A stretch of 64,000 nt of DNA from Myxococcales bacterium (GTDB taxonomy: Bacteria > Myxococcota_A > Polyangia > GCA-2747355). Shown here piece after piece: positions 49,809-63,740 of this stretch. The number at the start of each line of letters is the position of its first letter. Positions within the stretch are counted from its first letter, which is position 1. The stretch spans positions 1 through 64,000 of the forward strand of contig JAGQIK010000496.1 of the NCBI GenBank assembly GCA_020431405.1, given 5' to 3'. Made by a program: the position numbers and the translations under genes. The notes under the pieces are model-generated. The model saw nothing but the letters and a program-made list of their open reading frames with translations, had not been told where the DNA came from and ran no database searches.

Positions 49809-51167
49809 TCATTCGATGCCCAGCTTCGGCGCGACGACGTTGAAGATCTTCTTGAACAGAGCCAGGTCGACGACGGCGCCGACAAACCACGTTACCTCCG
49901 CCCGGTCGTGAGTCACGACCGGGCCGCTAAGAGGCTGACCTTCACGCAAGTCCTGCCCAAGTTTCGGCAGCACATTCAGCGCCACGCCGACGGCGACGCC
50001 GAGCCCCAGCGGCCACTGAAGCACGCCGCCTAGGTACCAGCGCAATGCCGGGTCGCGCAGGCTAGTACCAAGCAGCAGACCGACAACAGGACACAGACTT
50101 GAGCGATCGTCGCGTATGCCGAAGGGATACGCCAGCATCGAGAGCACTACATCGACGTTGGGGCCTTGATCACGTGTTATACGTGACACACCGTCGTCGC
50201 CGACGGCTAGTCCAAAGCTACGTTCGGCGAGGTGTGTGTAGCTCATCAAGACGCCGACAGAGAAAAAACTCGTTCCTGGAATCGAGAAGGTCTTCGTGCG
50301 CTGCTGCTCGCGCACCCTGCACTTGGTTTGACCCGTGGCGAATATCGACTCCGGATGCGGTTCGGCGACGACCTTGATGATCAGCGCACTGACGTTGACA
50401 AGCCTGAGGTGAAACGTTGCGGACACGATCCATGGGTTGTCATTCTTGCTTGCCTTGAATGCCGCCTTCTCGCCTGAGCGCAGGAGTCGGTGACGCTCTG
50501 TCTTGACGTCCAGCGTGTAGAAGGCCGCTTCAAGAGTCCGCGTGTACAACGAGATGGTCACAGACTGACCCTGGCGTAGGGCCTTCCACTTGGCCTTGGG
50601 GTGGGTGATCAGTCGCCCGCTGGGACTTAGACATAGATGCGCGTGCTCGCCATCATTGCTGTTGCACGTCTTGTCGAGCTTACTAGCTTCGTCCGTCGTC
50701 GGACGAAGCTGTGCGTCCGTGCAGTAGGCCAAGTCGGTAGCGTCTTTCGCCGCGGGCAGAGTCGTCGGAGTATTGTTCAAGGCCGGTTGGCTTGCTGGCG
50801 GCTTGTTGGCTTTGCCGACCACTACCGCGCTCGTCAGCGTCTTCTTCCTGTTTCCTTGGCGGTAGGTTGCTGTAATGTCTATCTGGACGCCGGCGAAGGA
50901 TGGGTCGATGACGATCCGTCTTCTTCCCTTCCGCTTGAGTCGCACGTCCTTGCGAGGGCGATTCTTCGGAGCTAGCGAGATGTCCACGGAGCGGTCGACG
51001 TCATTCACCAACTCGAGAGTTTGGCCGACGTCGATCGAGGCCCGTTTTGGGCTGAGTCCTGCTACCGTGACCTTTAGCGTCACAATTTTCGGTGTGCCGC
51101 TCGGCTTCTGAGCGTGTGTCACAGCCGGCGCGCAAAGCGCGACGATTAGGATCCATCGGTGCATCAT
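49809..51167 (-). CDS. Exported protein, possibly with an outer-membrane beta-barrel end
   Basis: A 452-residue protein with a signal peptide (MMHRWILIVALCAPAVTHAQ). The first 120 residues are a basic beta domain (KIVTLKVTVAGLSPKRASIDVGQTLELV). A Thr/Pro linker follows, then a cysteine-containing part, and the last 160 residues alternate in a beta-barrel-like way (FFSVGVLMSYTHLAER, CPVVGLLLGTSLRDPALRWYLGG). Its ATG overlaps the upstream stop by four bases. Function unknown. Confidence 0.6.
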   Translation of the reverse strand: MMHRWILIVALCAPAVTHAQKPSGTPKIVTLKVTVAGLSPKRASIDVGQTLELVNDVDRSVDISLAPKNRPRKDVRLKRKGRRRIVIDPSFAGVQIDITATYRQGNRKKTLTSAVVVGKANKPPASQPALNNTPTTLPAAKDATDLAYCTDAQLRPTTDEASKLDKTCNSNDGEHAHLCLSPSGRLITHPKAKWKALRQGQSVTISLYTRTLEAAFYTLDVKTERHRLLRSGEKAAFKASKNDNPWIVSATFHLRLVNVSALIIKVVAEPHPESIFATGQTKCRVREQQRTKTFSIPGTSFFSVGVLMSYTHLAERSFGLAVGDDGVSRITRDQGPNVDVVLSMLAYPFGIRDDRSSLCPVVGLLLGTSLRDPALRWYLGGVLQWPLGLGVAVGVALNVLPKLGQDLREGQPLSGPVVTHDRAEVTWFVGAVVDLALFKKIFNVVAPKLGIE

Positions 51168-51730
51168 CCGAGTTTCCTCATTGCGTCGGCCGGATGCCGC
51201 AAGTAGATGCGATTCCCTTGCGGGCTAAGTACTACCGAGCAGAGTGTGCCGATCAGCCACAGGTCGTACTCCTCTTCCACGTATACGGGTGAGCCCGAGT
51301 CGCCACCGGTGGGGAAGCTGTCTGTGTCCATTACGATCGTGCCATCGGATGCGAGCTCGCGGCAGAGCGTACCTGCCACGCGGCCACTACGCCCCGTGAT
51401 CGCCGTTGCTTCGTTTCCAAGGTATTCGGCGAGAGAGGCCTCGTCGACGAGCACGGGCGTCATCGGGCGCCACAGCGGAAAGTCGTCGACCCTAACGTCG
51501 GCTTGTGGCGTGAGCCGCGCAAGGTCGTTGCGGGCCTCATCCAGCACCGCGGACACGGTGGCGACGACGACATCAGGCGTCTCAGCGCAAGCGACCTGCT
51601 GGCCGACCTTGCACGCGTGGCCGGCCGTGTAGAGAGAGCGGTCGCTGGTACGAACAAAGCCCAGCGTCGCCGGCTCCTGCGCGGGTCCTACCAGAAGCAA
51701 CACGCCAGGGCGCAAGATCGTCTCGCCCAT
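51164..51730 (-). CDS. Compact trypsin-like serine protease
   Basis: A 188-residue protein with a readable catalytic triad: His38 in LYTAGHAC, Asp69 in EARNDLARL and Ser145 in PTGGDSGSPVYV. No signal peptide is seen. It lies 5 bases after the lipoprotein gene and overlaps the next gene by four bases, so the three are one operon. Small trypsin-like proteases without export signals also occur as activators in bacterial conflict systems, but here the partners are exported proteins, so the role is open. Confidence 0.75.
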   Translation of the reverse strand: MGETILRPGVLLLVGPAQEPATLGFVRTSDRSLYTAGHACKVGQQVACAETPDVVVATVSAVLDEARNDLARLTPQADVRVDDFPLWRPMTPVLVDEASLAEYLGNEATAITGRSGRVAGTLCRELASDGTIVMDTDSFPTGGDSGSPVYVEEEYDLWLIGTLCSVVLSPQGNRIYLRHPADAMRKLG

Positions 51731-51735
51731 GCCCG

Positions 51736-52275
51736 CTACTCGCCCTTTGCGTCGACACCACCATCTGTGCCGGCTTTACTCGCCGCATCGTCAGCGAGAG
51801 CATCTGTGCCAGCCCCATCTGCCGGCTCAGCGTCGTGTGCGGTGGGAGTCGTCGCGCGAGCGACTGGCCAAACGGCATCGTCGATTACGGCACCGGTGCA
51901 CGTTGACGCTGTGTCGCTGCCGCGTATCCGCACCACGCCACGCACGCGCGCGTCTGTGGAGAGCTCACCGTTGCCGGCGACTATGGTGATCCGCCCGCTG
52001 TCGGGAAGCGCCAGACAAGATCGGCCTGTTCCGAGCTTCGCAGCACCGATCTGCTCGACGCCGTAGTCGAGGTCCGCGCCCCGCCAATTGATCTCAAGCT
52101 CGGCGCCCGACTCCGTACCGGGCAAGTAGTCGGCAACGACGCCGATGAAGCGCCCATCGGCGGCGTTAACGCCAGTGAGAAACAGACGTCCGCGCTTTTC
52201 GTCAACACACGCCGAAAACGTCGTGATGGTGATCACGACGCCCACTACGAGTCTTACTCTTCGCACAGCCATCAA
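51736..52275 (-). CDS. Putative lipoprotein
   Basis: A 179-residue protein with signal region RLVVGVVITITTFSAC (lipobox FSAC). It has a small beta domain (GRLFLTGVNAADGRFIGVVADYL) and a C-terminal Ala/Asp/Gly-rich low-complexity tail from about residue 140. It is the first gene of a three-gene operon with the small protease and the barrel-like protein. Confidence 0.6.
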   Translation of the reverse strand: MMAVRRVRLVVGVVITITTFSACVDEKRGRLFLTGVNAADGRFIGVVADYLPGTESGAELEINWRGADLDYGVEQIGAAKLGTGRSCLALPDSGRITIVAGNGELSTDARVRGVVRIRGSDTASTCTGAVIDDAVWPVARATTPTAHDAEPADGAGTDALADDAASKAGTDGGVDAKGE

Positions 52276-52633
52276 TACTGCTTGTCAAGGTACTCAAAGG
52301 TTCGCATGCTTTGCAAGATCATAATGCGAAAAGAGGGCGGCCGTCAGATCGGGCGGGCGCTGGCGAAAGGACATCGTCGTCGACAACTCCAGCGTTCGTG
52401 CGCGTCGTCGAGATGATCAAGGTGCGCGAGGGCATTTGCTGAAGCCTCGGTGCCACACAGCCTGTCGTCGGAGCGTGCGGCCTAAGGATGCATAGCGCGC
52501 TCGCTGCTTCATATCGTGGCTACCACGACAGTGAGAGCTCGCGGTTAGTCGTTATTTCGCTGGATGCCTGCAGTCGGTTTGGAGGCATCTAGCTAGCTGC
52601 GATGCGGTTCACTTTGCCGCACGCGGAGGTGTG
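52276..52633. other. Divergent intergenic region before the phosphoesterase-GAF gene
   Basis: 358 bases between divergent genes. There is an AT-richer patch at about 52290-52335 that could hold promoters, but no clear -35/-10 pair. The Shine-Dalgarno GGAGG at 52625-52629 belongs to the plus-strand gene. No RNA gene is seen. Confidence 0.5.
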
Positions 52634-55048
52634 ATGTTATTTCCAGAAGCTCGCTTTTCCATTCTCCACATATCCGACACCCATTTACCGCCGAAGGCGG
52701 CCACCAACGAAGGGATTGATCACAAGGCTTGGCAGGCTCTCTGGAACAGGCGCGTCGATGAGAAACCTCTCGGCGAGGCCATCGACCTACTGGTGCATAC
52801 CGGTGACGTAGCCCTAGCCTCTCCGGACCGTCGCCTTTACCGAGCTCTCAGAGATGATCTTGATCGCCGCCTGACAGCCGATCGATGGATGGCCATTCCG
52901 GGCAACCATGACCGCAGGACTTGGGGGAATCTATTCTACAACGTACACGCATTTGACTCGCTGCGAGACTCGTGGAATCGAGCACGCTGGGCGGCGAATT
53001 GGCCTTGTGTGATCGTGCCTTTGGACTCCAACCCCGACAAGAAGCGCACCCTTCGCGGTGGGCTCGCGCTCGCGCGCGGCGTGATGGGCACCGAGACCAG
53101 TCGGCTCTGTAGCGAGTTGGCGAGTGTGCAGGGTCGCATGCGCGAGCACTATAGCGATCTGCTATCGCGTCGTACGTCCGAAGAGGTGTACCAGATCGCA
53201 CGACGGTTTCTATGTGCGTTCAATGCGGCGCACTTTGAAGAGATCCTCAAGGGAGAGCCAGGCGCGGGACAACAGAGCGTCAGCAAGGTACTGGTTGGGA
53301 TCTTGGCCCGATATGCCTTCGCGCGTGCTGCCAAGATCGTGCTGGTACATCACCATCCCATCGGCGTCCCCGACACGGAAAACGCTGGTGTCACCAGTCA
53401 GGATGCGTACTTGCTGATGACGGATGCCGGGGAGTTTCTGAGGTGTCTTAGACACGAAGGCGTCAATCTCGTACTGCACGGTCACAAGCACAGGCCACAT
53501 CGGATCGCGTTGACACTGCCGGGCGTCGATGCCGAAGCGGTGGGGGTCGTTGGCGCGGGGAGTATCACGCGCGGCAATGGGCACAACCAGGCCACCGGAA
53601 ACCTGATCCGGGTAGGTGCTGACGGGGGGATCGACGTCGATCTGTTCCATCTGGGCAGAAGCGAGCTCAATGCTACGGCGTCGCTCGCGCTGCGTCGCTG
53701 GACCCATGTTCGGCAGGCAATCCGCCGTGTCGCTGGCGCCGAGGTTTCGACGAACGCGCGGTCCGTAGCCGTGGACGTTCTCATCTTCCCCGAGACAGGA
53801 GACTGCGTCGTCACGAGAGAGTATCTGGGTGTGCAGTGTCCGAGAGACAAGCTCCCGTTGCAGTTGCCGATTGCTGCCCGATCACAGCAGATTACGTCGC
53901 TCGAGTACGACGTGGAGCTCGAACACCCGAGCCCCGGTCAGGCGACCCGCCACGACCTGACCGAAGTGGGGACCGGAAACGACCCCGGAATGCGGATTGC
54001 AATGCTGGAGCTCGACGCGACATCGCCATCGGCATCTGCCAATAGGCGAAGTGAGGGGCCTAGCTTTCGCGTGGCAACGCAGGTCGTGGCACTTTCGTCA
54101 TTTGCCGTCAACGGCTGGCAAGCGCGACATCTATTTGGCAGCGACAAGGCGGCGCTGCGAGAGAGCTATCGGTTTACCTCGAGTCTTCCGATTCAGGAGC
54201 AGCTGACCTTGACGGTGCGGCTCAGGGCGTCGGAACGTTCGCCTCTGCGATTCAGCGACCCTTTTACAGTCTTCGAGCGGCCAGATGCGAGACCGGAACG
54301 AAGCGAAGGGGACGAAGTGCGCCTCCATCAGTCGTTTGATCGAACGCAGGTTCGGGCTGCCGTGATGGAGCCGATTTGGGGGTATCGGTACGGCTTGCAA
54401 TGGACATGGAGCAGAAGGGTAGCTGGCGCGTACCAAGCGGTGGGAGAAGACGGTGCGGAGATCGCCGCGACGGGACCGCTGGCTGACGAGACCACCCGAG
54501 AACGCCTGCAACGTAGTGCGCTCGCGAGCGCCGAGCGGCATGGGGCTGTCGCCGCTGCGGCGGCCGAGGCTCTCGGCATGCTACCGACCGAGTACGATGC
54601 AACCGTCTACTCTCTGGCCGCCTCAACTGAAGGCCGCGCGCAGCTCGTGCAGCTCGCCTGTAACGCGGGGGCATCGAGGCGACCAGACCATATCGAAAGG
54701 CTGCCGTTCGGCGCCGGTGTCGCAGGTCGTGCGGCGTGGATGCGGGCCGTGACGCTTTGGCATGATGGACTCGAAAAACACACACTCGGCAGTCTTGTCG
54801 ACTGTCATCTTCGCGCACGCGACACGGTGCCGCACAAAGCCGTCATCGCCGTGCCCATTCCGAACGGGTGGCCGTGCTTCATCCTGCAAGTAGGTTCGAG
54901 CCAGCCGAGCTTTCGCGCCGCCGTAGTCCAGGCTGCATCGAACAACAACCTCGCCGACCTCGAGGAAATCGAGCCCATCTTGCAGGTGGCGGGTAAGCTA
55001 GCTAAGATCGACTGGTTAGCTCGTCTGTCGGAGGACGAAAATGGCTAA
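52634..55048 (+). CDS. Calcineurin-like metallophosphoesterase with a C-terminal GAF-like domain
   Basis: An 804-residue cytoplasmic protein. The phosphoesterase domain (1-350) has every metal motif: LHISDTHLP (DxH), VHTGDVAL, IPGNHDRR, VLVHHHPIG and LHGHKHRPH. Residues 370-560 are two beta-rich segments of unknown kind. Residues 690-760 look like a GAF domain (GVAGRAAWMRAVTLW, then HKAVIAVPIPNGWPCFILQVGS). ATG 52634 is preferred to GTG 52631 because GGAGG ends at 52629. The last codons overlap the start of a 53-residue gene. A signalling phosphodiesterase controlled by a bound small molecule is a possible reading; the substrate is unknown. Close to a nuclease-STAND operon, it may belong to a defence locus. 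Confidence 0.8.
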   Translation: MLFPEARFSILHISDTHLPPKAATNEGIDHKAWQALWNRRVDEKPLGEAIDLLVHTGDVALASPDRRLYRALRDDLDRRLTADRWMAIPGNHDRRTWGNLFYNVHAFDSLRDSWNRARWAANWPCVIVPLDSNPDKKRTLRGGLALARGVMGTETSRLCSELASVQGRMREHYSDLLSRRTSEEVYQIARRFLCAFNAAHFEEILKGEPGAGQQSVSKVLVGILARYAFARAAKIVLVHHHPIGVPDTENAGVTSQDAYLLMTDAGEFLRCLRHEGVNLVLHGHKHRPHRIALTLPGVDAEAVGVVGAGSITRGNGHNQATGNLIRVGADGGIDVDLFHLGRSELNATASLALRRWTHVRQAIRRVAGAEVSTNARSVAVDVLIFPETGDCVVTREYLGVQCPRDKLPLQLPIAARSQQITSLEYDVELEHPSPGQATRHDLTEVGTGNDPGMRIAMLELDATSPSASANRRSEGPSFRVATQVVALSSFAVNGWQARHLFGSDKAALRESYRFTSSLPIQEQLTLTVRLRASERSPLRFSDPFTVFERPDARPERSEGDEVRLHQSFDRTQVRAAVMEPIWGYRYGLQWTWSRRVAGAYQAVGEDGAEIAATGPLADETTRERLQRSALASAERHGAVAAAAAEALGMLPTEYDATVYSLAASTEGRAQLVQLACNAGASRRPDHIERLPFGAGVAGRAAWMRAVTLWHDGLEKHTLGSLVDCHLRARDTVPHKAVIAVPIPNGWPCFILQVGSSQPSFRAAVVQAASNNNLADLEEIEPILQVAGKLAKIDWLARLSEDENG

Positions 55049-55280: not shown

Positions 55281-56108
55281 CTACGCGGCGAGATCGACGC
55301 AACGAAAGGTGCGCTTGTCCTTGGCGAGCAGTTCGAACGTGCCGTGCTGCGCGAACACATCGCCAAAGGCACCGAACGGAGACGTCCGGGCCGCCAACTC
55401 GTCGCGAGGCACAGCCTCAAGCGCCCACGCACTCGCGTGCGCGAGGCGAATGACGGCGGCGCAAAAGTCGACAAGCTGAAGTCCCGGCCAGCGCCGAGCC
55501 GGCTGGTCAAAATGGGGCGTCACGACGATCCCTGCGCGCCGGAGCGTCTTGATGCGCGCGCTTGCCCGCTTCGAGTCGCGCGGCACACCGCGGTCCTCGA
55601 CCAAAACAATGTGCCCAGGCGCCTGCTGTCGTGCAACCGCGAGCGCCACGCCACGAACGACTGACGCCACGGGAAGCTTGGCGTCGCCGGAGATGCCAAA
55701 GCGCGCCGGCGTCGCCGCCAGGGCGCGCTCGCGCACCTCGGTCTGCAGCTGCTCGCGAACGCGCCTGAAGCCTTCATCGGCCTCGTGGACGAGCTCGTAG
55801 ACGAGCAGCGCTCCGGCCCCGACCGCTTCGTGGATCACGTCGTGGATGACCGCCGCGCGCTCAAATACCGATAGCGCCTGCCAGCCGTCCCGGCCAGCGA
55901 TGATGTCCTTGGCGTGAAAGTACGGCTGCGTGGAAAGGCGGAACTGACGTTGAAGCGTGGCGGCCAGCGCATCGATGTAACGCGTGATCGCCGAATCAGC
56001 CTCATCGTCGACGATGGCCGCGACGTAGCCCAGCGCGTCACCGAGCGTTCGCGACGACTGCGCCTCGTAGAGCACGAAATCGTCCATGTAGATGTGGGCC
56101 GTCGTCAT
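55281..56108 (-). CDS. DUF3800-like protein (RNase H-fold nuclease-like)
   Basis: A 275-residue protein. AHIYMDDFVLYE at the start stands where DUF3800 proteins usually have YxDESG. PYFHAKDIIAG (62-72), IVLVEDRGVPRDSKRASARI and PGLQLVDFCAAVI match later DUF3800 acidic positions. DUF3800 proteins have a predicted RNase H-like fold and often sit in mobile or defence regions. The Glu-Ser-Gly of the first motif is changed to Asp-Phe-Val, so activity may differ. It follows the 136-residue gene by 10 bases and is the last gene of the minus-strand operon. Confidence 0.6.
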   Translation of the reverse strand: MTTAHIYMDDFVLYEAQSSRTLGDALGYVAAIVDDEADSAITRYIDALAATLQRQFRLSTQPYFHAKDIIAGRDGWQALSVFERAAVIHDVIHEAVGAGALLVYELVHEADEGFRRVREQLQTEVRERALAATPARFGISGDAKLPVASVVRGVALAVARQQAPGHIVLVEDRGVPRDSKRASARIKTLRRAGIVVTPHFDQPARRWPGLQLVDFCAAVIRLAHASAWALEAVPRDELAARTSPFGAFGDVFAQHGTFELLAKDKRTFRCVDLAA

Positions 56109-56118
56109 TGCGCTGCTG

Positions 56119-56529
56119 CTATGAAAGCGCGGTGATCATCGCGCCGACCCGGTTTAGATGCCTCATCTGGCGCTGGTAGCGGGGGTCGTTCCAGCGAGAC
56201 GGCTGTTTCACCGAGGCCAGCGCCTTCGCGTGACCGAGCTCGAGGCGGCGCCGCGCTCGAATGACGCGATGTCGCGCGGTGCGAAGCGCTCGAAGCGCTT
56301 GCCAGGGCGTGCCGGCACACCTCACGCGTGCCGCCTCGGCGAGCAGGTCGCGCACTGATCGCCGCTCGTCCCACACCGCGCCCGCGCTGATGTGAAGCGC
56401 GTCGTGCGAGGCCGAAAGGTAGACGGCGTGTTCTCCGGCGTGCTTGTCGAGCGCAGCGTTTAGGACCACGGGCAGGTGACCGATGTAGCCGACAACTGTA
56501 GCTTCGAGGGCGACTGGTAGGTAGGCCAT
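56119..56529 (-). CDS. Small uncharacterised protein of the nuclease-STAND operon
   Basis: A 136-residue protein read from ATG 56529; a TTG at 56535 is an alternative start. The first half is beta-rich (VALEATVVGYIGHLPVVL, AVYLSASHDALHISAGAV). The second half is a basic helical region (ALRALRTARHRVIRARRRLELG). It lies 81 bases after the STAND gene and 10 bases before the DUF3800-like gene. No family is recognised. A nucleic-acid-binding adaptor is possible given the basic helix, but not shown. Confidence 0.55.
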   Translation of the reverse strand: MAYLPVALEATVVGYIGHLPVVLNAALDKHAGEHAVYLSASHDALHISAGAVWDERRSVRDLLAEAARVRCAGTPWQALRALRTARHRVIRARRRLELGHAKALASVKQPSRWNDPRYQRQMRHLNRVGAMITALS

Positions 56530-56616
56530 GTTCAAAGTGTGACAGCGCCCTGGCCGCGATCAAGCGCGCCAATGACCTCAGCGCGCGTATTGCGAAGCGA
56601 TGGCTGCCTTTTTTCG

Positions 56617-59600
56617 TCAGCGTGGGTCGAGGCGTTCCTCGTCTTCCATCCGCTGGAAGTCGAGACGTTGTTGAACCAACTCGAGGGCGCTTTGAACGGC
56701 CTGTCTGATGCTGGAAGGTTCGGAGCGGGCAGACTCGGCGACGTCTTGCAGCAGCGCGATGCGTGCTGTGAACTCGCTGGGATCCTCTCCCAGTCGTCCC
56801 GACCAACTGCCGATGAAGCTGGCGGTGCTCACAAAGGCGCGCGAGACAGCATCGAAGTGCGGCGTCGACGATGCGGTGCGTAGGAGGTCCATCCATACCT
56901 GGCGCGCCACCGCGAAGGGGACGTCGACCAGGAGTCTAGCCGTCTCGACCAGCGCATCGTTCTTGCTTGTCGCCACGACCTTTCGGGCGTAGCCGATCGC
57001 TGCCGCGGGCACCTGTGCAGCGAGCCACTTGCCAAGCTGAAGCCACTGCACCTCGTCGATCAGCGCCCCGTCGCGCCAGCTTCGCACGCGTTCAATCGTT
57101 GTGGCGAACTCGCCTGAGCCTTCGATCGGCGTCACCTGCGCCCCAGAGCCCAATGAGGCCTGCATGATTGACCAGACATCACCGTCCCGCCTCAATCGCT
57201 GCTCGATAATGTCGAGCCAGCGCGTCGTATCTCCCCCCAGACACCACATCAAAAGCTGCGGAAGATCCCGGTCGTCTTCGTTGTCGCAGTCGATGAAGGC
57301 GTTGATCACCGCATCGGCAAGCGAGCGCATGTCGAGCGGGGCGTGCTTGTCAATCTGATAGTGGATGTCGCTCCAGATGTGGTCTATCAATCGCGCGTCG
57401 TAGCCCGCCCGCAATGCAGCGGCGAACAGCTCCAGTCTCATCTGGGGCGCGACCTTCAAGGCGTGAAGATAGAGATCGACCAGCGACTCGCGCACGGAAA
57501 CGCTTGAATGGGACGCCAGCCGAAACAACCAATGGTGGCAGTCACCGCCTTCGGGGTGGTCCGGAGCCACCACGAGAAGACGCAAGAGCCACATGGCTTC
57601 GTCTACGCTCAGAGACTCTGGCTCGCTAAACGTCTCGACCGCTACTTCGAACGCCCTCGGGTGCGTGTGACTCCAGACAGCTTCTAGCGACGCGACGAAC
57701 TGCGCCGGCACAAGCTGTCGAGCCTCGCCGACGACAAGATCCGTCAGGTAGTCAGTATGCCTCTCCGCGACGGCCCACAGCCATGGTGGGACCTGACCAC
57801 TTCCGTCGTAACCCGCGCTGACCAGACACTTGAGCAACTCGACAAGGCCGACAGCACCGCGATAGTCATCGTCAATGTCGTCAACCAGCGGGCGAAACTG
57901 CTCCACCAATTGTTCGTGCTGCCTCGGCTGGTGGCGCTTGCGGTGCACCCACCACGACCACCGCTTTTCGTTCGGCGCTTCTGCTCGCAAAAGGGAGAAG
58001 TTCTCGAAGCCGTCCCAGGGGCGGATCGTCCATCGAAGCACGCGCAATTGGACAGAAGGCTCGAAGCGGCCAAGCGCCTCCTCGGCCAGATCGGCCTCGG
58101 GCCGAAGTCTCAGCCAACTGGTCATCAGGGTTGTTTCGAGCGCGTGAAGTACCGCCAGGCTCGACTCGGTCTGTAGCCGCCGACCGAGTTGCTCGAAGAT
58201 GGCCCGGCGCTCCGTCGCTGACCGACTCTCGAGCGGGATCTCGGATATTTTGTATGCTGGATGGCTCTCGCCGAGCCTGTCGGCAGCGCCGATGGCTGCC
58301 AGGCGCACCGCCTCGCTTGCGTGCTCGACGCCCCTCTCGAGAAGCGCCATAGCGTGCTCGCGAAGCGTCGACATGGCCTGTGACTCGGGCAGTGCCCGTG
58401 CGCCATGCGTCACGGTGGCGGCGTCGGATTCAGTAAAGGACCATGTCGTGCGAAGCACCGTTCCGATCGCGGCGAAGATAATCGCGACTTGCTCAGGCGA
58501 CGGGGCGTCCGCAGCCAGCCACACCCCGGCTTGCTGCAATGCGGCCTCGATGGTGTCTGGCCCGACCTCAAGCGGACTGCAGAGCGATCGAGCAACCTGC
58601 CCGGGCTTGTAGTTGTCGTAGGTGCCCACGGCGACGCGCGAGGGTACGGCTGTCAGAACATCCAGGGTCCGACCCACGAGCCTCGGATGTCGGCCGACAA
58701 CAAGTAGCGCAGGTGAGATATCGTCGGTTGAAAGGTCGTCGACAAAGTCCTCTCCCTCCCACGCTCGTCGAAATAGCTCCCGCCGATCGGTTGGTCGCCG
58801 CTGCGCTGGGTCAGGTGGCGGTGCGTCAACGGTCGCTTCGATGAAGTCGAGCGTCTCATCGGGCGCGACGCGACCCGTGTAGATTGCGCAGTCGAGTCTC
58901 TGCTTTCGCTCGGGCGTGGGCTTGCGACTTTCCTCGGTGGCCCAGTTGGCCAGCAACGCCGCCAACGTTTGTCGTGCGCGTCCGCTGCCCACGGCGCTTG
59001 CGTGAGAGAGATTCGTCACGACGCGTTGTGGCACCTCGGCCAGCAGTGGCGAGACCACCTGCTTGACGAAACTACGATAGTCACCGCGAGCGAGCCGAGC
59101 GTCGAGGACGAAGTCTCCGACGAGGTCGGCAGAAAATCTCAGCTTGTGTCCGACCGCGCGTAGGCTGCCCGCTTCAACGAGAAGCTCGCATATGCCATCA
59201 AGCTGTGCTGCGTCATCGAGCCCTAGCACGCGCGAGGCAAGCATCCGCTCGGACTCATTGGTGTGAGCGAAAGGGACGAGCAGCGCGAGCACTGCGCGCA
59301 GATCCGGCGGCGCCGTGATCTCTGCGCCGCGCAGAATCGCGTCGGCATGTTGTGCCAGACGAGCCAGGACGTCTCGCTTGAGATTATCGTTCGAGGCAAA
59401 CGACAGCGGGTGCTCGTTGCTTTGAAGCGCTTGGACGGCGGCGCTCAACAGAAAGAGGTTGCCGCCGACGGCCCGCACGAGACGACGCCGATCTCGCTCG
59501 TCGAGCTTCGTGGTCTGCTGCACAAGCTCTTCCAGCCTTTCCTTGGACAAGGGAGCGAGGCCGACAAGACAGGTGCGGTGAACGCCATCTGCGGCGAGCT

Positions 59601-60513
59601 GACGTAGCAGGAGGTCTGTCGATCCGGGGCGACATCCAACGACCAGAACCAAGTCGGGCTTGGCACCGAGCACCAGACGTGCAAAGGGCCGCACGTGCTC
59701 GACGTAGTCCCGGTCGGCGTCGTCGACGACGATGAGATAGCGCCCCTCGGGTTGAAGTTCGTCTGCAACGACGTCGACGCCGGGGCGGTGCCTGCTGCAG
59801 AAGTAGACCTGCCGCGTTGGAAACAACGAATGGGCGCGGGCTGTCGCCTCGCGAAGCAGCCGCGTCTTGCCAGCTCCTGCCGCGCCGTGAAGAACAACGA
59901 CTCGCGCGTCGCCACCGACTGCATCGGCGAGCTCGCGCTCGGCCTCTTTCCGTTCGACGTACGGCAGATCGGCCAGAGGCAGCTGCTCAGCGCCATCGCG
60001 ATACTCGTGTTCGGGTTGCAGACCGGGAATGATGGGGCGCCGAAAGTACCGATACAGTATCCATCGCTTGGGCAGCAGCAACTCTTCGAGCTTCTGACGC
60101 GAAATGACGATGATCTCCCGAAGCGAGTCTGGCCTGGCAAGCGATTGTAGGTCGGCAACATAGTCTGCTTCGAGAACGGCCTGCGTCACGACGAGCAGGT
60201 AGTCGACGCCAGCAGCGGCGGCCTTTTGTACCTCACCGGGCTTCCCCGCCTTCCCCTCGAGCTCCCTCTTGAGGTGGGTTCGCGCCTTGGCGTGATCGTA
60301 CTTCGTGTACTTCGCTTGGATCATCCACGCGCCCGTCCGCCCGCCGAGAAAGCGAATGGTGCCGTCGAAACGCAGATCAAAGCCGCGATCACGACCGCTC
60401 CAGGGATCGCCGGGCTGACAGTCGGCGAAGTTCAACTCGGCCAAGAAGAACGCGTTCAGCAGGCCGTGAAACCGCTGCGCACTGTCGATATGGCTCCAGT
60501 CAAGTCGCTCCAC
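56617..60513 (-). CDS. Restriction-type nuclease fused to a STAND NTPase with helical repeats (NLR/Avs-like architecture)
   Basis: A 1298-residue protein starting at GTG 60513, one base after the upstream stop. Residues 10-165 form a PD-(D/E)xK nuclease of the Mrr/Cap4 kind: RDRGFDLRF with Asp46 and WMIQAKYTKYD with the Q-A-K at 66-68. Residues 185-365 form a P-loop NTPase: Walker A HGAAGAGKTRLL (209-220), Walker B RYLIVVDDAD (258-267), and GGNLFLLSAAV near 350. The remaining 900 residues are mostly helical repeats. Nuclease, STAND switch and C-terminal sensor is the plan of Avs and other bacterial NLR-like immune proteins, in which a viral protein triggers oligomerisation and DNA cleavage. 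The assignment is from architecture and motifs only. Confidence 0.8.
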   Translation of the reverse strand: MERLDWSHIDSAQRFHGLLNAFFLAELNFADCQPGDPWSGRDRGFDLRFDGTIRFLGGRTGAWMIQAKYTKYDHAKARTHLKRELEGKAGKPGEVQKAAAAGVDYLLVVTQAVLEADYVADLQSLARPDSLREIIVISRQKLEELLLPKRWILYRYFRRPIIPGLQPEHEYRDGAEQLPLADLPYVERKEAERELADAVGGDARVVVLHGAAGAGKTRLLREATARAHSLFPTRQVYFCSRHRPGVDVVADELQPEGRYLIVVDDADRDYVEHVRPFARLVLGAKPDLVLVVGCRPGSTDLLLRQLAADGVHRTCLVGLAPLSKERLEELVQQTTKLDERDRRRLVRAVGGNLFLLSAAVQALQSNEHPLSFASNDNLKRDVLARLAQHADAILRGAEITAPPDLRAVLALLVPFAHTNESERMLASRVLGLDDAAQLDGICELLVEAGSLRAVGHKLRFSADLVGDFVLDARLARGDYRSFVKQVVSPLLAEVPQRVVTNLSHASAVGSGRARQTLAALLANWATEESRKPTPERKQRLDCAIYTGRVAPDETLDFIEATVDAPPPDPAQRRPTDRRELFRRAWEGEDFVDDLSTDDISPALLVVGRHPRLVGRTLDVLTAVPSRVAVGTYDNYKPGQVARSLCSPLEVGPDTIEAALQQAGVWLAADAPSPEQVAIIFAAIGTVLRTTWSFTESDAATVTHGARALPESQAMSTLREHAMALLERGVEHASEAVRLAAIGAADRLGESHPAYKISEIPLESRSATERRAIFEQLGRRLQTESSLAVLHALETTLMTSWLRLRPEADLAEEALGRFEPSVQLRVLRWTIRPWDGFENFSLLRAEAPNEKRWSWWVHRKRHQPRQHEQLVEQFRPLVDDIDDDYRGAVGLVELLKCLVSAGYDGSGQVPPWLWAVAERHTDYLTDLVVGEARQLVPAQFVASLEAVWSHTHPRAFEVAVETFSEPESLSVDEAMWLLRLLVVAPDHPEGGDCHHWLFRLASHSSVSVRESLVDLYLHALKVAPQMRLELFAAALRAGYDARLIDHIWSDIHYQIDKHAPLDMRSLADAVINAFIDCDNEDDRDLPQLLMWCLGGDTTRWLDIIEQRLRRDGDVWSIMQASLGSGAQVTPIEGSGEFATTIERVRSWRDGALIDEVQWLQLGKWLAAQVPAAAIGYARKVVATSKNDALVETARLLVDVPFAVARQVWMDLLRTASSTPHFDAVSRAFVSTASFIGSWSGRLGEDPSEFTARIALLQDVAESARSEPSSIRQAVQSALELVQQRLDFQRMEDEERLDPR

Positions 60514-60514
60514 G

Positions 60515-61579
60515 TCAGTCGCTTCGCTCCGGTCGTCTCCCGAAGGTCGCCTCCACTCGTTGAAACGCCACTTGGGCCTGCAACTGCCATGCGGTGCCGT
60601 CGCGCGTCACGCTCGTGTCGCCGACCCACCGGTCGAGATGTGGTACATATTGGCGCGCATACAGCGTCACATCGTCGCGCGTGACTCGAATCACCTGATA
60701 CTGATTGGGTATCTCGGGCGGCCTTGAGACGGCCTCGACCGATGCCGCGCCCGTCGAGAGGATAGGCACACGATTAGTCATCCAGCGAATACCTCGCAGG
60801 TGAGTGTGGCCATGCAAGAGCATGTTCAACGATGCCTGAAGCCGATCTTCGAACACGCCGTAGTCGCGCAAGACATCAGGTTGCGTGGAGGGGTCGTTGG
60901 CGGAGGGCTCGGTGGACGATGATGTGAAGTGGGCGTTGTGATGAACCAATCCGAGCCGAAACCAGCCAGCATTTGCGTAGCGCGCAAGCTCATTCTCGAA
61001 CCAGTCGAGTTGGCGCTCGCCGATGTATCCGAATCGTCCCTCGCGGTGTGACTCCGCGACCGTGGAATTGAATCCAGCGACAACAAGGTTGAGCGAGTCG
61101 ATGGGGTAGAGCGACCAGTACGCTTCCTCGGAGAAACTGTATCGTTCACTTTGATAGAATCTGCGAAAGAACCGCTCGTAGTTCACGTATTTGGGATAGT
61201 AGGGGGCGGCCGGATCGCGGTTGGCACTGTCGCAGTCGCTGAAGTACAGCTCGCAGCTATCGCGATCGAGATCGTGATTCCCCGGCACGACCAGCACGCG
61301 CGACCGGGGAACCTTCAACGCGTGGCTCAATCGCTGCAGGAAGTCGCCGGCCTCTTCGAACTGATCGGTCTTTCCCGACTCTGCTAGGTCGCTGGTGAGC
61401 GCGATCACGTCCGGCGTCAGTCCCGCGACGCGAGTGAGAATCGCGACGTCACGCTGCAGCGACTGAAACAGTGTGCGCCTTTGGGCGGCGACGCCGACGC
61501 TTGACGCGCGACCGAATCGATGCCTCGGTCCAAACTGGACATCCGAAAGATGGAGTATCGTCAGCTGATCTCTGGGCAC
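60515..61579 (-). CDS. Calcineurin-like phosphoesterase with an altered first motif, partner of the nuclease-STAND gene
   Basis: About 354 residues if GTG 61579 (VPRDQLTILHLSD) is the start; the frame is open to 61666. The metal motifs are LSDVQFG, where Gln replaces the usual His of DxH, then LTSDLAESG with Ser in place of Gly, an intact VPGNHDLDRD, LVHHNAH, and an intact LHGHTHLRG. Phosphoesterases of this LSDxQFG type have been noted as components of bacterial conflict systems with NTPases, as far as I recall. It is the first gene of the operon and ends one base before the nuclease-STAND start, so the two are certainly co-translated. The cytoplasmic substrate could be a nucleotide signal or nucleic acid; unknown. 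Confidence 0.75.
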   Translation of the reverse strand: MPRDQLTILHLSDVQFGPRHRFGRASSVGVAAQRRTLFQSLQRDVAILTRVAGLTPDVIALTSDLAESGKTDQFEEAGDFLQRLSHALKVPRSRVLVVPGNHDLDRDSCELYFSDCDSANRDPAAPYYPKYVNYERFFRRFYQSERYSFSEEAYWSLYPIDSLNLVVAGFNSTVAESHREGRFGYIGERQLDWFENELARYANAGWFRLGLVHHNAHFTSSSTEPSANDPSTQPDVLRDYGVFEDRLQASLNMLLHGHTHLRGIRWMTNRVPILSTGAASVEAVSRPPEIPNQYQVIRVTRDDVTLYARQYVPHLDRWVGDTSVTRDGTAWQLQAQVAFQRVEATFGRRPERSD

Positions 61580-61665
61580 CGCGCCGTCCCCAAAGCCGCA
61601 TTCTACGCGAAAACGGTCACCGCATGAATGCCCGCATACAGACGTTGCACGAGAGGCTCCACTCA

Positions 61666-62859
61666 ATGACCCTCACCCGCAGGCAGCTCTACGATCTCGC
61701 CTGGCAGACCCCCGTGTCTCGCCTGGCGCAGCAGTTCGCCATCTCAGACGTTGGCCTGGCCAAGATCTGCGCTCGACACGACATCCCCCGCCCCGCGAGG
61801 GGCTACTGGGCCAAGCCTTCAGCCGAGCGGCCGGCGGCACCGCCATTGCCAAAGTCCTGCGCGCCGGACGTCATCGAAATTGCCGTTGCGGCCTCGAGCG
61901 CACCGCCCGAGCAGTCTGATCCGCTCTCAGACCGCATCGCAGAGGAGCGCAGAGCAGAAAACCGCATCGTCGTTTCCGAGCAGCTCGATAGGCCCTGCAA
62001 GCTCGTCGCCGAGGCGCGCAAGCTGCTGCGAGGTGCACCCGTCGATGATGTCGGCACCATCGAGCCGCCGCCAGCTTGTCTCGCGCTCGCCGTGTCTCGA
62101 GAGCAACTACCACGTGCGCTGCGTCTCGCCGATGCGCTCGTCAGGGCGTTTGACGCGAGAGGCTGGCCTTGCACCGTCACCGACGACACGACCGTGGTGG
62201 ACGTCAAGGGCGTTGCCGTCGGCTTGCGCATCGAAGAGGCGATCGACAGCGAAAGGCGCCCGGTCAAGCCCGACGTGAATGCCTTCGCGTTTCATTTCAA
62301 CCGACACGAGACGTTCAGAACGCCATCGGGGCGGCTGCTCGTCGCCATCGAGGAGCAGGGTCGGCGGCTGCGACGTGACATGCATCGACGATGGAAGGAC
62401 ACGAAAACGCGGCGCATGGAAGATCGGCTCAACAACGTCATCATCGGGATGTTGCGCCTGGCGACCGCCGTGCGTGAGGAGGACGAAGATCGCGAGCGGC
62501 GGCAGCGAGCCGAAGCCGAGCGACAGCAGCAGCTGCAAGCTGCGCTGGAAGAGCAGCGTCGTCTGCGTCACGAGCTTGCAGCTGAAAAGCAGCGCGTCGC
62601 CCTACTCCACGACGAGGCCGTCCGCTGGAAGAGCAGCGATACGCTGCGGCAGTACATCGAGCGCGTGCGTGCCCGCGGCGCTCATCCGCAGCTTGAGCTT
62701 GCCGGGGCAGAGCTGGATCAATGGCTGTCGTGGGCTGACACGCAGGCAGACCGTATGGATCCTTTCGTCAAGAGTCCCCCGTCGATCCTCGACGACGAGC
62801 AGCGTATCGAGCACATGTGCGACCATCTGAAAGGGCCGCCGACGTACAGAGGCTGGTAG
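61666..62859 (+). CDS. Uncharacterised protein with an N-terminal helix-turn-helix-like segment and a coiled coil
   Basis: A 397-residue protein. The start MTLTRRQLYDLAW at 61666 is chosen because the opening segment (LTRRQLYDLAWQTPVSRLA, then ISDVGLAKICARHDIP and RGYWAK) is a recurring N-terminus of a proteobacterial family of unknown function; GAGAGG precedes it. That segment looks like a DNA-binding helix-turn-helix. The middle is mixed alpha/beta. Residues 265-330 form a charged coiled coil (EEDEDRERRQRAEAERQQQL). It is divergent from the phosphoesterase with an 86-base gap, so it could regulate that operon. Confidence 0.55.
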   Translation: MTLTRRQLYDLAWQTPVSRLAQQFAISDVGLAKICARHDIPRPARGYWAKPSAERPAAPPLPKSCAPDVIEIAVAASSAPPEQSDPLSDRIAEERRAENRIVVSEQLDRPCKLVAEARKLLRGAPVDDVGTIEPPPACLALAVSREQLPRALRLADALVRAFDARGWPCTVTDDTTVVDVKGVAVGLRIEEAIDSERRPVKPDVNAFAFHFNRHETFRTPSGRLLVAIEEQGRRLRRDMHRRWKDTKTRRMEDRLNNVIIGMLRLATAVREEDEDRERRQRAEAERQQQLQAALEEQRRLRHELAAEKQRVALLHDEAVRWKSSDTLRQYIERVRARGAHPQLELAGAELDQWLSWADTQADRMDPFVKSPPSILDDEQRIEHMCDHLKGPPTYRGW

Positions 62860-62861
62860 TC

Positions 62862-63740
62862 GTGCGCGCGACCTCGCTCGACGAGCTCGACGAGCTCGTT
62901 CAGCTCTGTCGGCAAGGCAAACTCTTCGAGGTGCAGGCATGGGTCAGTTCCGGCAAGCCGATCGCCATGCCGGAGAACACACCGAGCCGCAGCCATAGGC
63001 GAAACCCGCTGCGCGTGGCGATGAATGCGGGCTTTCACAGCCTGGTCGAGGTTCTGCTCGACGCGGGCGCTCCGCGCGTCGAGGGCAACTACAACGCGCT
63101 ACAGCACGCGGTGGACTTACGTCGGCCAGATCTCGCCGAGCTGCTGTTCAGTCATGGCGCCGCCGCCAACGAGGTGTCCATGCGCTGGGTTCTCGGCGAG
63201 TGGAATCCCGAGATGATTGACCTGTTTATCTCGCACGGGGGATCGCTTCACGAAGACCACGCCGTCGCGCACGCGCTTATGGACTGCATCCGCCCGGCGA
63301 TAGGTGTCGTCAAGCGTAACGCCGGCGATGCTGAGATCATGCGCCAGGCGGAGTTCGCGCTGCGACACCACGCCTGGGAGGGAAACGTCAAATGGGTGTC
63401 GCTCTTGCTCTGGGCGGGCGTCGACCCGTGGGCGCGCGGCTGGTTTCAGATCGAGGACCTCGAACAACCGGATGACGACGACGATGACGGCGAGTACCCA
63501 AGTGCCGTGGAGTGGGCGGCGTCTGCGGGCCATCTCGAGGTGCTGAAGCTAAAGAAGCTGCCGACAGCGGCAGCTTCCGATCACCCAGAGCGAAGCCGCC
63601 TGCTCACCTACGCGCGCAGTAGCGAGGTTCTGGCTTGGCTCTTCGAGCAGGGTCACCGGCCGGAATTGCTCGAACGGCGAGGCAGCCGCATGATCTCGCA
63701 GCTGCTAAACGCGATGACGTGGAGTTCTTCTGAACCTTGA
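62862..63740 (+). CDS. Ankyrin-repeat protein, probably broken at its 3' end
   Basis: A 292-residue reading frame from GTG 62862, two bases after the previous stop. Ankyrin-like repeats are visible: NPLRVAMNAGFHSLVEVLLDAGA, NALQHAVDLRRPDLAELLFSHGA, the degenerate EMIDLFISHGGSL, and SAVEWAASAGHLEVLKL after an acidic Asp run. The C-terminal 15 residues (MISQLLNAMTWSSSEP) do not look like the fold. The frame read from 63690 in another phase continues the expected pattern, so a frameshift near 63690-63710 is likely. Ankyrin repeats bind proteins; the partner is unknown. Confidence 0.6.
   Translation: MRATSLDELDELVQLCRQGKLFEVQAWVSSGKPIAMPENTPSRSHRRNPLRVAMNAGFHSLVEVLLDAGAPRVEGNYNALQHAVDLRRPDLAELLFSHGAAANEVSMRWVLGEWNPEMIDLFISHGGSLHEDHAVAHALMDCIRPAIGVVKRNAGDAEIMRQAEFALRHHAWEGNVKWVSLLLWAGVDPWARGWFQIEDLEQPDDDDDDGEYPSAVEWAASAGHLEVLKLKKLPTAAASDHPERSRLLTYARSSEVLAWLFEQGHRPELLERRGSRMISQLLNAMTWSSSEP

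Follow-up and report, generated by a model that had tools for sequence, protein, structure and literature searches.

The window considered here, that is, the whole stretch of DNA analysed, comprises the first 64,000 bases of a contig from a myxococcal genome of 11.2 Mb in 733 contigs. Four co-directional genes lie on its minus strand (Table 1). Genes 1 and 2 are separated by 1 base and genes 3 and 4 by 10, and the largest gap, of 87 bases, falls between genes 2 and 3. All four frames are open, and reading of the ORFs bore out the gene order, strand and gap sizes put forward in an earlier, sequence-only reading of this DNA. Longer forms can be drawn for two of the genes: gene 1 may start at a TTG codon at 61666, and gene 3 would encode 138 residues if read from a TTG at 56535. 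Coding status is backed by codon-position GC for genes 2 to 4 and by homology for gene 1. Tight spacing is common on this contig, where 31 of 38 same-strand neighbours in a rough gene call lie no more than 100 bases apart, and the packing of the four genes is therefore weak evidence that they form one system.

Table 1. Genes and sequence features of the four-gene locus (window coordinates)
Feature	Position	Strand	Details
Gene 1, calcineurin-like metallophosphoesterase (MPP)	60515-61579	-	354 aa, GTG start; Pfam PF00149, DS9_1/DS8 NCBIfam matches, metal motifs
Gene 2, STAND protein	56617-60513	-	1298 aa, GTG start; putative Mrr-like domain ~aa 1-170; nSTAND_NTPase5 ~aa 190-480; C-terminal helical ARM-like repeats
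Putative Mrr-type PD-(D/E)xK domain (gene 2)	60004-60513	-	D42-R-G-F-D46, Q66-A-K68
Walker A (gene 2)	59863-59886	-	GAAGAGKT, aa 210-217; read from sequence
Walker B (gene 2)	59719-59736	-	LIVVDD, aa 260-265; read from sequence
Gene 3, small protein	56119-56529	-	136 aa, ATG start; no family in Pfam, PADLOC, NCBIfam
Gene 4, DUF3800-like protein	55281-56108	-	275 aa; sub-threshold PF12686; QLVD near C-terminus

The window has a GC content of about 0.70 up to 32 kb and of about 0.61 from there to its end; third-position GC falls with it, from about 0.9 to 0.7, in this stretch (about 32,000 to the window end), a shift which suggests acquired DNA. Beyond the window, the same contig carries a vWA protein together with a MoxR protein matching bpMoxR at 194 bits (contig 71907-74896, locus L069), of the kind described for MoxR-vWA ternary conflict systems (PMC7159879), and an SNF2 helicase that matches PADLOC DrmD with an E-value of 9.6e-264 (contig 80919-84011; L069:10920-14012), the contig ending about 4 kb later, too early for the remaining genes of a DISARM locus to be seen. 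RadC/JAB, PDDEXK_1 (Cas4/RecB-like) and Rad52-like genes occupy contig positions 67936-71746 in the same stretch. With its bpMoxR/vWA and DrmD-type genes, this setting fits a defence island.

Other genes lie close to the locus within the window. On one side, a plus-strand gene (52631-55048) encodes a second MPP protein of 805 residues with the canonical D-x-H motif and a 485-residue C-terminal part without a Pfam family; where the class has relatives, it is chiefly the MPP part that they resemble. A weakly trypsin-like protein (51164-51730, minus strand; Trypsin_2 E-value 1.1e-4, below the cut-off) stands beside a small lipoprotein-like protein (51736-52275, minus strand). On the other side are a divergent protein with no Pfam family (61471-62859, plus strand) and an ankyrin-repeat protein (62817-63740, plus strand).

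The phosphoesterase and its relatives

The assignment of gene 1 to the calcineurin-like phosphoesterases was upheld by a match to Pfam Metallophos (PF00149) at 39.9 bits, against a cut-off of 21.5. Its ligand motifs are D13-x-Q15, D64, N101-H102-D103, H213-H214 and H258-x-H260; with respect to the canonical set (D-x-H, GD, GNH, H, GHxH), the protein differs by a glutamine, Q15, in place of the motif I histidine and by S63 in place of the motif II glycine. The glutamine is common to the whole MPP clade of gene 1, hereafter the D-x-Q clade, and the metal motifs are kept in a four-sequence alignment of gene 1 relatives (A1). Two NCBIfam models of phage-tested systems recognise the protein at levels below their equivalog cut-offs, namely DS9_1_antiphage (105.8 bits, E-value 2.5e-30, cut-off 420 bits) and, far below, DS8_antiphage (42.6 bits, E-value 1.7e-11, cut-off 790 bits). 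On these profile matches, gene 1 is homologous to the MPPs of DS-8 and DS-9. Pentatricopeptide matches in the PDB were discarded as spurious, the alignments being short.

The three best matches of gene 1 in the class sit in frames of 1170-1457 residues, that is, in MPP-NTPase fusions. A scan of contigs with alignment A1 gave at least 51 loci, which represent a sample. Among the D-x-Q-clade proteins drawn from these loci and from the class matches, at least 19 have the MPP and a P-loop NTPase motif on one polypeptide, a count that takes in one Nonomuraea protein with a degenerate MPP. The MPP relatives share 37-43% identity with gene 1, and the fused ones are hosted by Actinomycetota, Acidobacteria, Planctomycetes, Verrucomicrobia and Myxococcota. 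Their typical architecture is MPP-(inactive REase)-NACHT-WD40/FGE. Specifically, Pfam returned NACHT and/or NA-iREase3, WD40, pentapeptide, FGE or TIR among the matches listed for six newly found fusions, and over all the scanned fusions NACHT or AAA, often with NA-iREase3, WD40, pentapeptide, FGE or TIR. The P-loop motif is absent from two short Planctomycete ORFs (L143, L144) and from one truncated plus-strand frame (L136).

Separate MPP genes also occur. At locus L138, from Candidatus Sulfopaludibacter, a stand-alone MPP of 353 residues is followed after 5 bases by a P-loop ORF with weak nSTAND3/NACHT matches, at which point the contig ends. In the tree, gene 1 falls within the fused D-x-Q clade, near L139, and the L138 MPP is placed elsewhere. 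Since the L138 protein nests among fused MPPs and away from gene 1, separation of the MPP from its NTPase probably occurred at least twice.

Some further observations concern the wider family. The Nonomuraea protein mentioned above (L124:5425-10977) has a TIR-MPP-NACHT-pentapeptide-WD40-like layout and, as read from its translation, has lost most of the MPP metal ligands. On Aeromonas and Klebsiella plasmids (L265, L266), MPP genes each have a GASH gene 11-13 bases downstream, an arrangement that recalls GTPase-centred conflict systems. Viral contigs scanned with the MPP yielded distant MPPs only.

The STAND protein and the two smaller genes

The second gene had been described as a PD-(D/E)xK nuclease fused to a STAND NTPase and helical repeats. 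The NTPase is clearly recognised, with nSTAND_NTPase5 (PF25199) scoring 42.3 bits against a cut-off of 34, and the C-terminal repeats give a weak match to ARM_ECM29_C (E-value 8.8e-4). For the nuclease, the D...QxK motif layout is present as claimed, but no Pfam family is matched even at an E-value of 10. When the N-terminus was aligned by hhalign with an Mrr profile built from 30 sequences of the class, 111 columns were co-linear and both motifs were paired; none of 200 shuffled controls aligned 100 columns, 29 of them, however, scored as high or higher, and hhalign gave a probability of 0.5%. The D...QxK pattern, which was written from gene 2 itself and hence speaks to rarity only, is absent from the other proteins compared. 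An AlphaFold single-sequence model of the domain is too poor for the fold to be read (pLDDT 36), and the iREase3 profile gives no match. Taken with what is known of the family, the motif layout makes it likely that this N-terminus is an Mrr-type domain.

No full-length relative of gene 2 was found in 676 genomes (193 from relatives, 8 bearing the MPP, 276 of the Frankia phylum and 199 of the Planctomycete phylum) or in a plasmid set, the matches being confined to the P-loop region or weak and partial; few candidates were scored per genome in these searches, which may miss distant relatives. Short peptide patterns from gene 2, run across genome contigs, likewise returned no full-length relative. 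In the loci of PF25199 proteins fetched from 284 genomes, none has an MPP beside it, and the readable N-termini of the fetched proteins are kinases, cyclase-like or absent.

STAND NTPases include regulators too, and the MPP superfamily is large. Gene 2 could accordingly encode a STAND regulator of signalling or transcription type, with gene 1 as a housekeeping nucleotide phosphodiesterase, in which case the locus would be non-defensive. However, the closest relatives of gene 1 are receptor domains rather than housekeeping enzymes, a Pfam search of gene 2 found no DNA-binding regulator domain, and the locus lies in a defence-like stretch, all of which makes such a regulator quite improbable.

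The small protein encoded by gene 3 is, as noted from the sequence, without a recognisable family, Pfam giving nothing even at an E-value of 10. It has no transmembrane-like segment by hydropathy, and no convincing relative was found in 193 genomes. The DUF3800-like label of gene 4 is tentative: the QLVD motif is there, but PF12686 scores 14.5 bits (E-value 0.061), below its cut-off of 21. Against the DUF3800 profile, the QxxD segment alone aligns (hhalign E-value 0.0021, probability 13.6%), and a profile built from the class does not match gene 4 at an E-value of 0.01. No convincing relatives of gene 4 appeared in the genomes searched, its AlphaFold model is too low in confidence for the fold to be read (pLDDT 39), and an Rfam scan for a DUF3800-linked RNA gave chance-level matches only. 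DUF3800 proteins are predicted to have an RNase H fold and are associated with Cas12a2 (PMC10910872); gene 4 could encode a nuclease of this fold. Co-transcription of genes 3 and 4 is probable.

The sequence-only reading had joined all four genes into one system. In a system of this kind, the MPP and the Mrr-like nuclease could be effectors of the STAND sensor, gene 3 an adaptor or inhibitor, and gene 4 a third nuclease. The shared strand and short gaps, and the predicted fold and Cas12a2 association of DUF3800 proteins, speak for such a unit. On the other hand, in the loci fetched, DUF3800-profile matches are absent beside D-x-Q MPP genes, as are MPP-profile matches next to 19 DUF3800 genes from the class, and none of the searched genomes and loci showed the same set of four genes. 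Genes 3 and 4 were not found beside such MPP or STAND genes at any other locus covered; no convincing relatives of them were found, and the widest gap of the set sets them off from gene 2. Nothing beyond position supports their membership, and the four-gene unit appears doubtful.

A different partition would see two modules, an MPP-STAND receptor made of genes 1 and 2 and an independent unit of genes 3 and 4, for example of a toxin-antitoxin-like kind. The 87 bases between genes 2 and 3, compared with 10 between genes 3 and 4, agree with this partition, and it is the arrangement of genes 1 and 2 alone that is mirrored at L138. No gene 3 homologue was found with any DUF3800 gene, though, nor any convincing relative of gene 3 where it was searched for, and the second module is conceivable without being favoured. 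This partition refines the interpretation of genes 1 and 2 as a split receptor, developed below, and is compatible with it as far as those two genes are concerned.

A candidate split receptor and its relation to known systems

Genes 1 and 2 would best be explained as a split NLR-type immune receptor, to which we assign a probability of roughly 0.55 on the sequence comparisons at hand. A single base separates the gene for a D-x-Q-clade MPP from the downstream nSTAND_NTPase5 gene, in whose product both Walker motifs are intact. Because the relatives of this MPP are fused to P-loop NTPases and an adjoining pair exists at L138, the MPP and the STAND protein very probably constitute a functional pair. 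Several facts count against the split receptor: no second nSTAND5-MPP locus is present among the PF25199 loci fetched, gene 2 has no full-length relative and its nuclease match is not statistically significant, motif I of gene 1 has Q for H, and short gaps are common on the contig.

In such a receptor, the C-terminal helical repeats of gene 2 would recognise an invader, a phage product being the likeliest trigger, and this recognition would lead to ATP-dependent oligomerisation of the STAND domain. Oligomerisation, in turn, would switch on two effectors, one in cis (the Mrr-like nuclease) and one in trans (the MPP). The latter may hydrolyse a nucleotide or another phosphodiester, whereby the infected cell would suffer damage or a change in its signalling before phage release. 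An extended form of this mechanism is an NLR with distributed effectors, in which genes 3 and 4 are further parts and the STAND protein drives the cis nuclease and the trans D-x-Q phosphodiesterase in a combined attack on DNA, a nucleotide signal and perhaps RNA; we regard it as unlikely.

Of the proposed anti-phage system, what stands is an MPP-STAND pair of immune type, as judged from the MPP relatives, the homology to DS-8 and DS-9 and the defence-like surroundings, and what lacks support is the four-gene unit. Its description as undescribed also needs restricting, as MPP-NACHT proteins and MPP effectors are already published. DS-8, identified by DefensePredictor, is a single MPP-NACHT protein in which mutations of either part abolished defence, and DS-9, an MPP with a HAD phosphatase, lost defence when predicted catalytic residues of the MPP were mutated (PMC13092281). 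The present locus resembles DS-8 in coupling a homologous MPP to a STAND-class NTPase, but DS-8 is one polypeptide, whereas here there are two genes, an NTPase of the nSTAND5 family and an added Mrr-like domain; by this and by its score it falls outside DS-8. It resembles DS-9 in that gene 1 is homologous to the DS-9A MPP; however, its neighbour, gene 2, encodes a STAND protein in which Pfam recognises no HAD domain, and in the absence of a HAD phosphatase and at its sub-cut-off score the locus falls outside DS-9 as well.

The MPP-iREase-NACHT-WD40/FGE proteins (L125-L137 and others) belong to the same MPP clade and share its D-x-Q motif, but they are fused and combine NACHT with an inactive REase and other sensor repeats, while the protein described here has nSTAND5 and a D...QxK domain. 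MPP is also a described effector of GTPase-centred and TRADD-N/STAND conflict systems (PMC7159879, PMC8195603), which likewise employ it as an exchangeable effector in multicellular bacteria; GTPase, GASH and EAD domains, in contrast, are not recognised at this locus. As regards gene 2 itself, its layout recalls that of Avs proteins, which consist of a nuclease, a STAND NTPase and repeats, but no PADLOC Avs model is matched, the PADLOC search giving unrelated weak matches only.

The occurrence of MPP with NACHT, with nSTAND5 and in GTPase/GASH systems suggests that this effector has been passed between NTPase families, and a single receptor may employ two effectors. If an MPP-STAND pair is naturally split, enzyme and switch could be purified and mutated apart, allowing one to ask directly whether the NTPase switches on the MPP and which substrate the latter cleaves. 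In comparison with the known systems, MPP-STAND defence is already described, and what is new here is that MPP and NTPase are split, that the partner is of the nSTAND5 family and that an Mrr-like domain is added.
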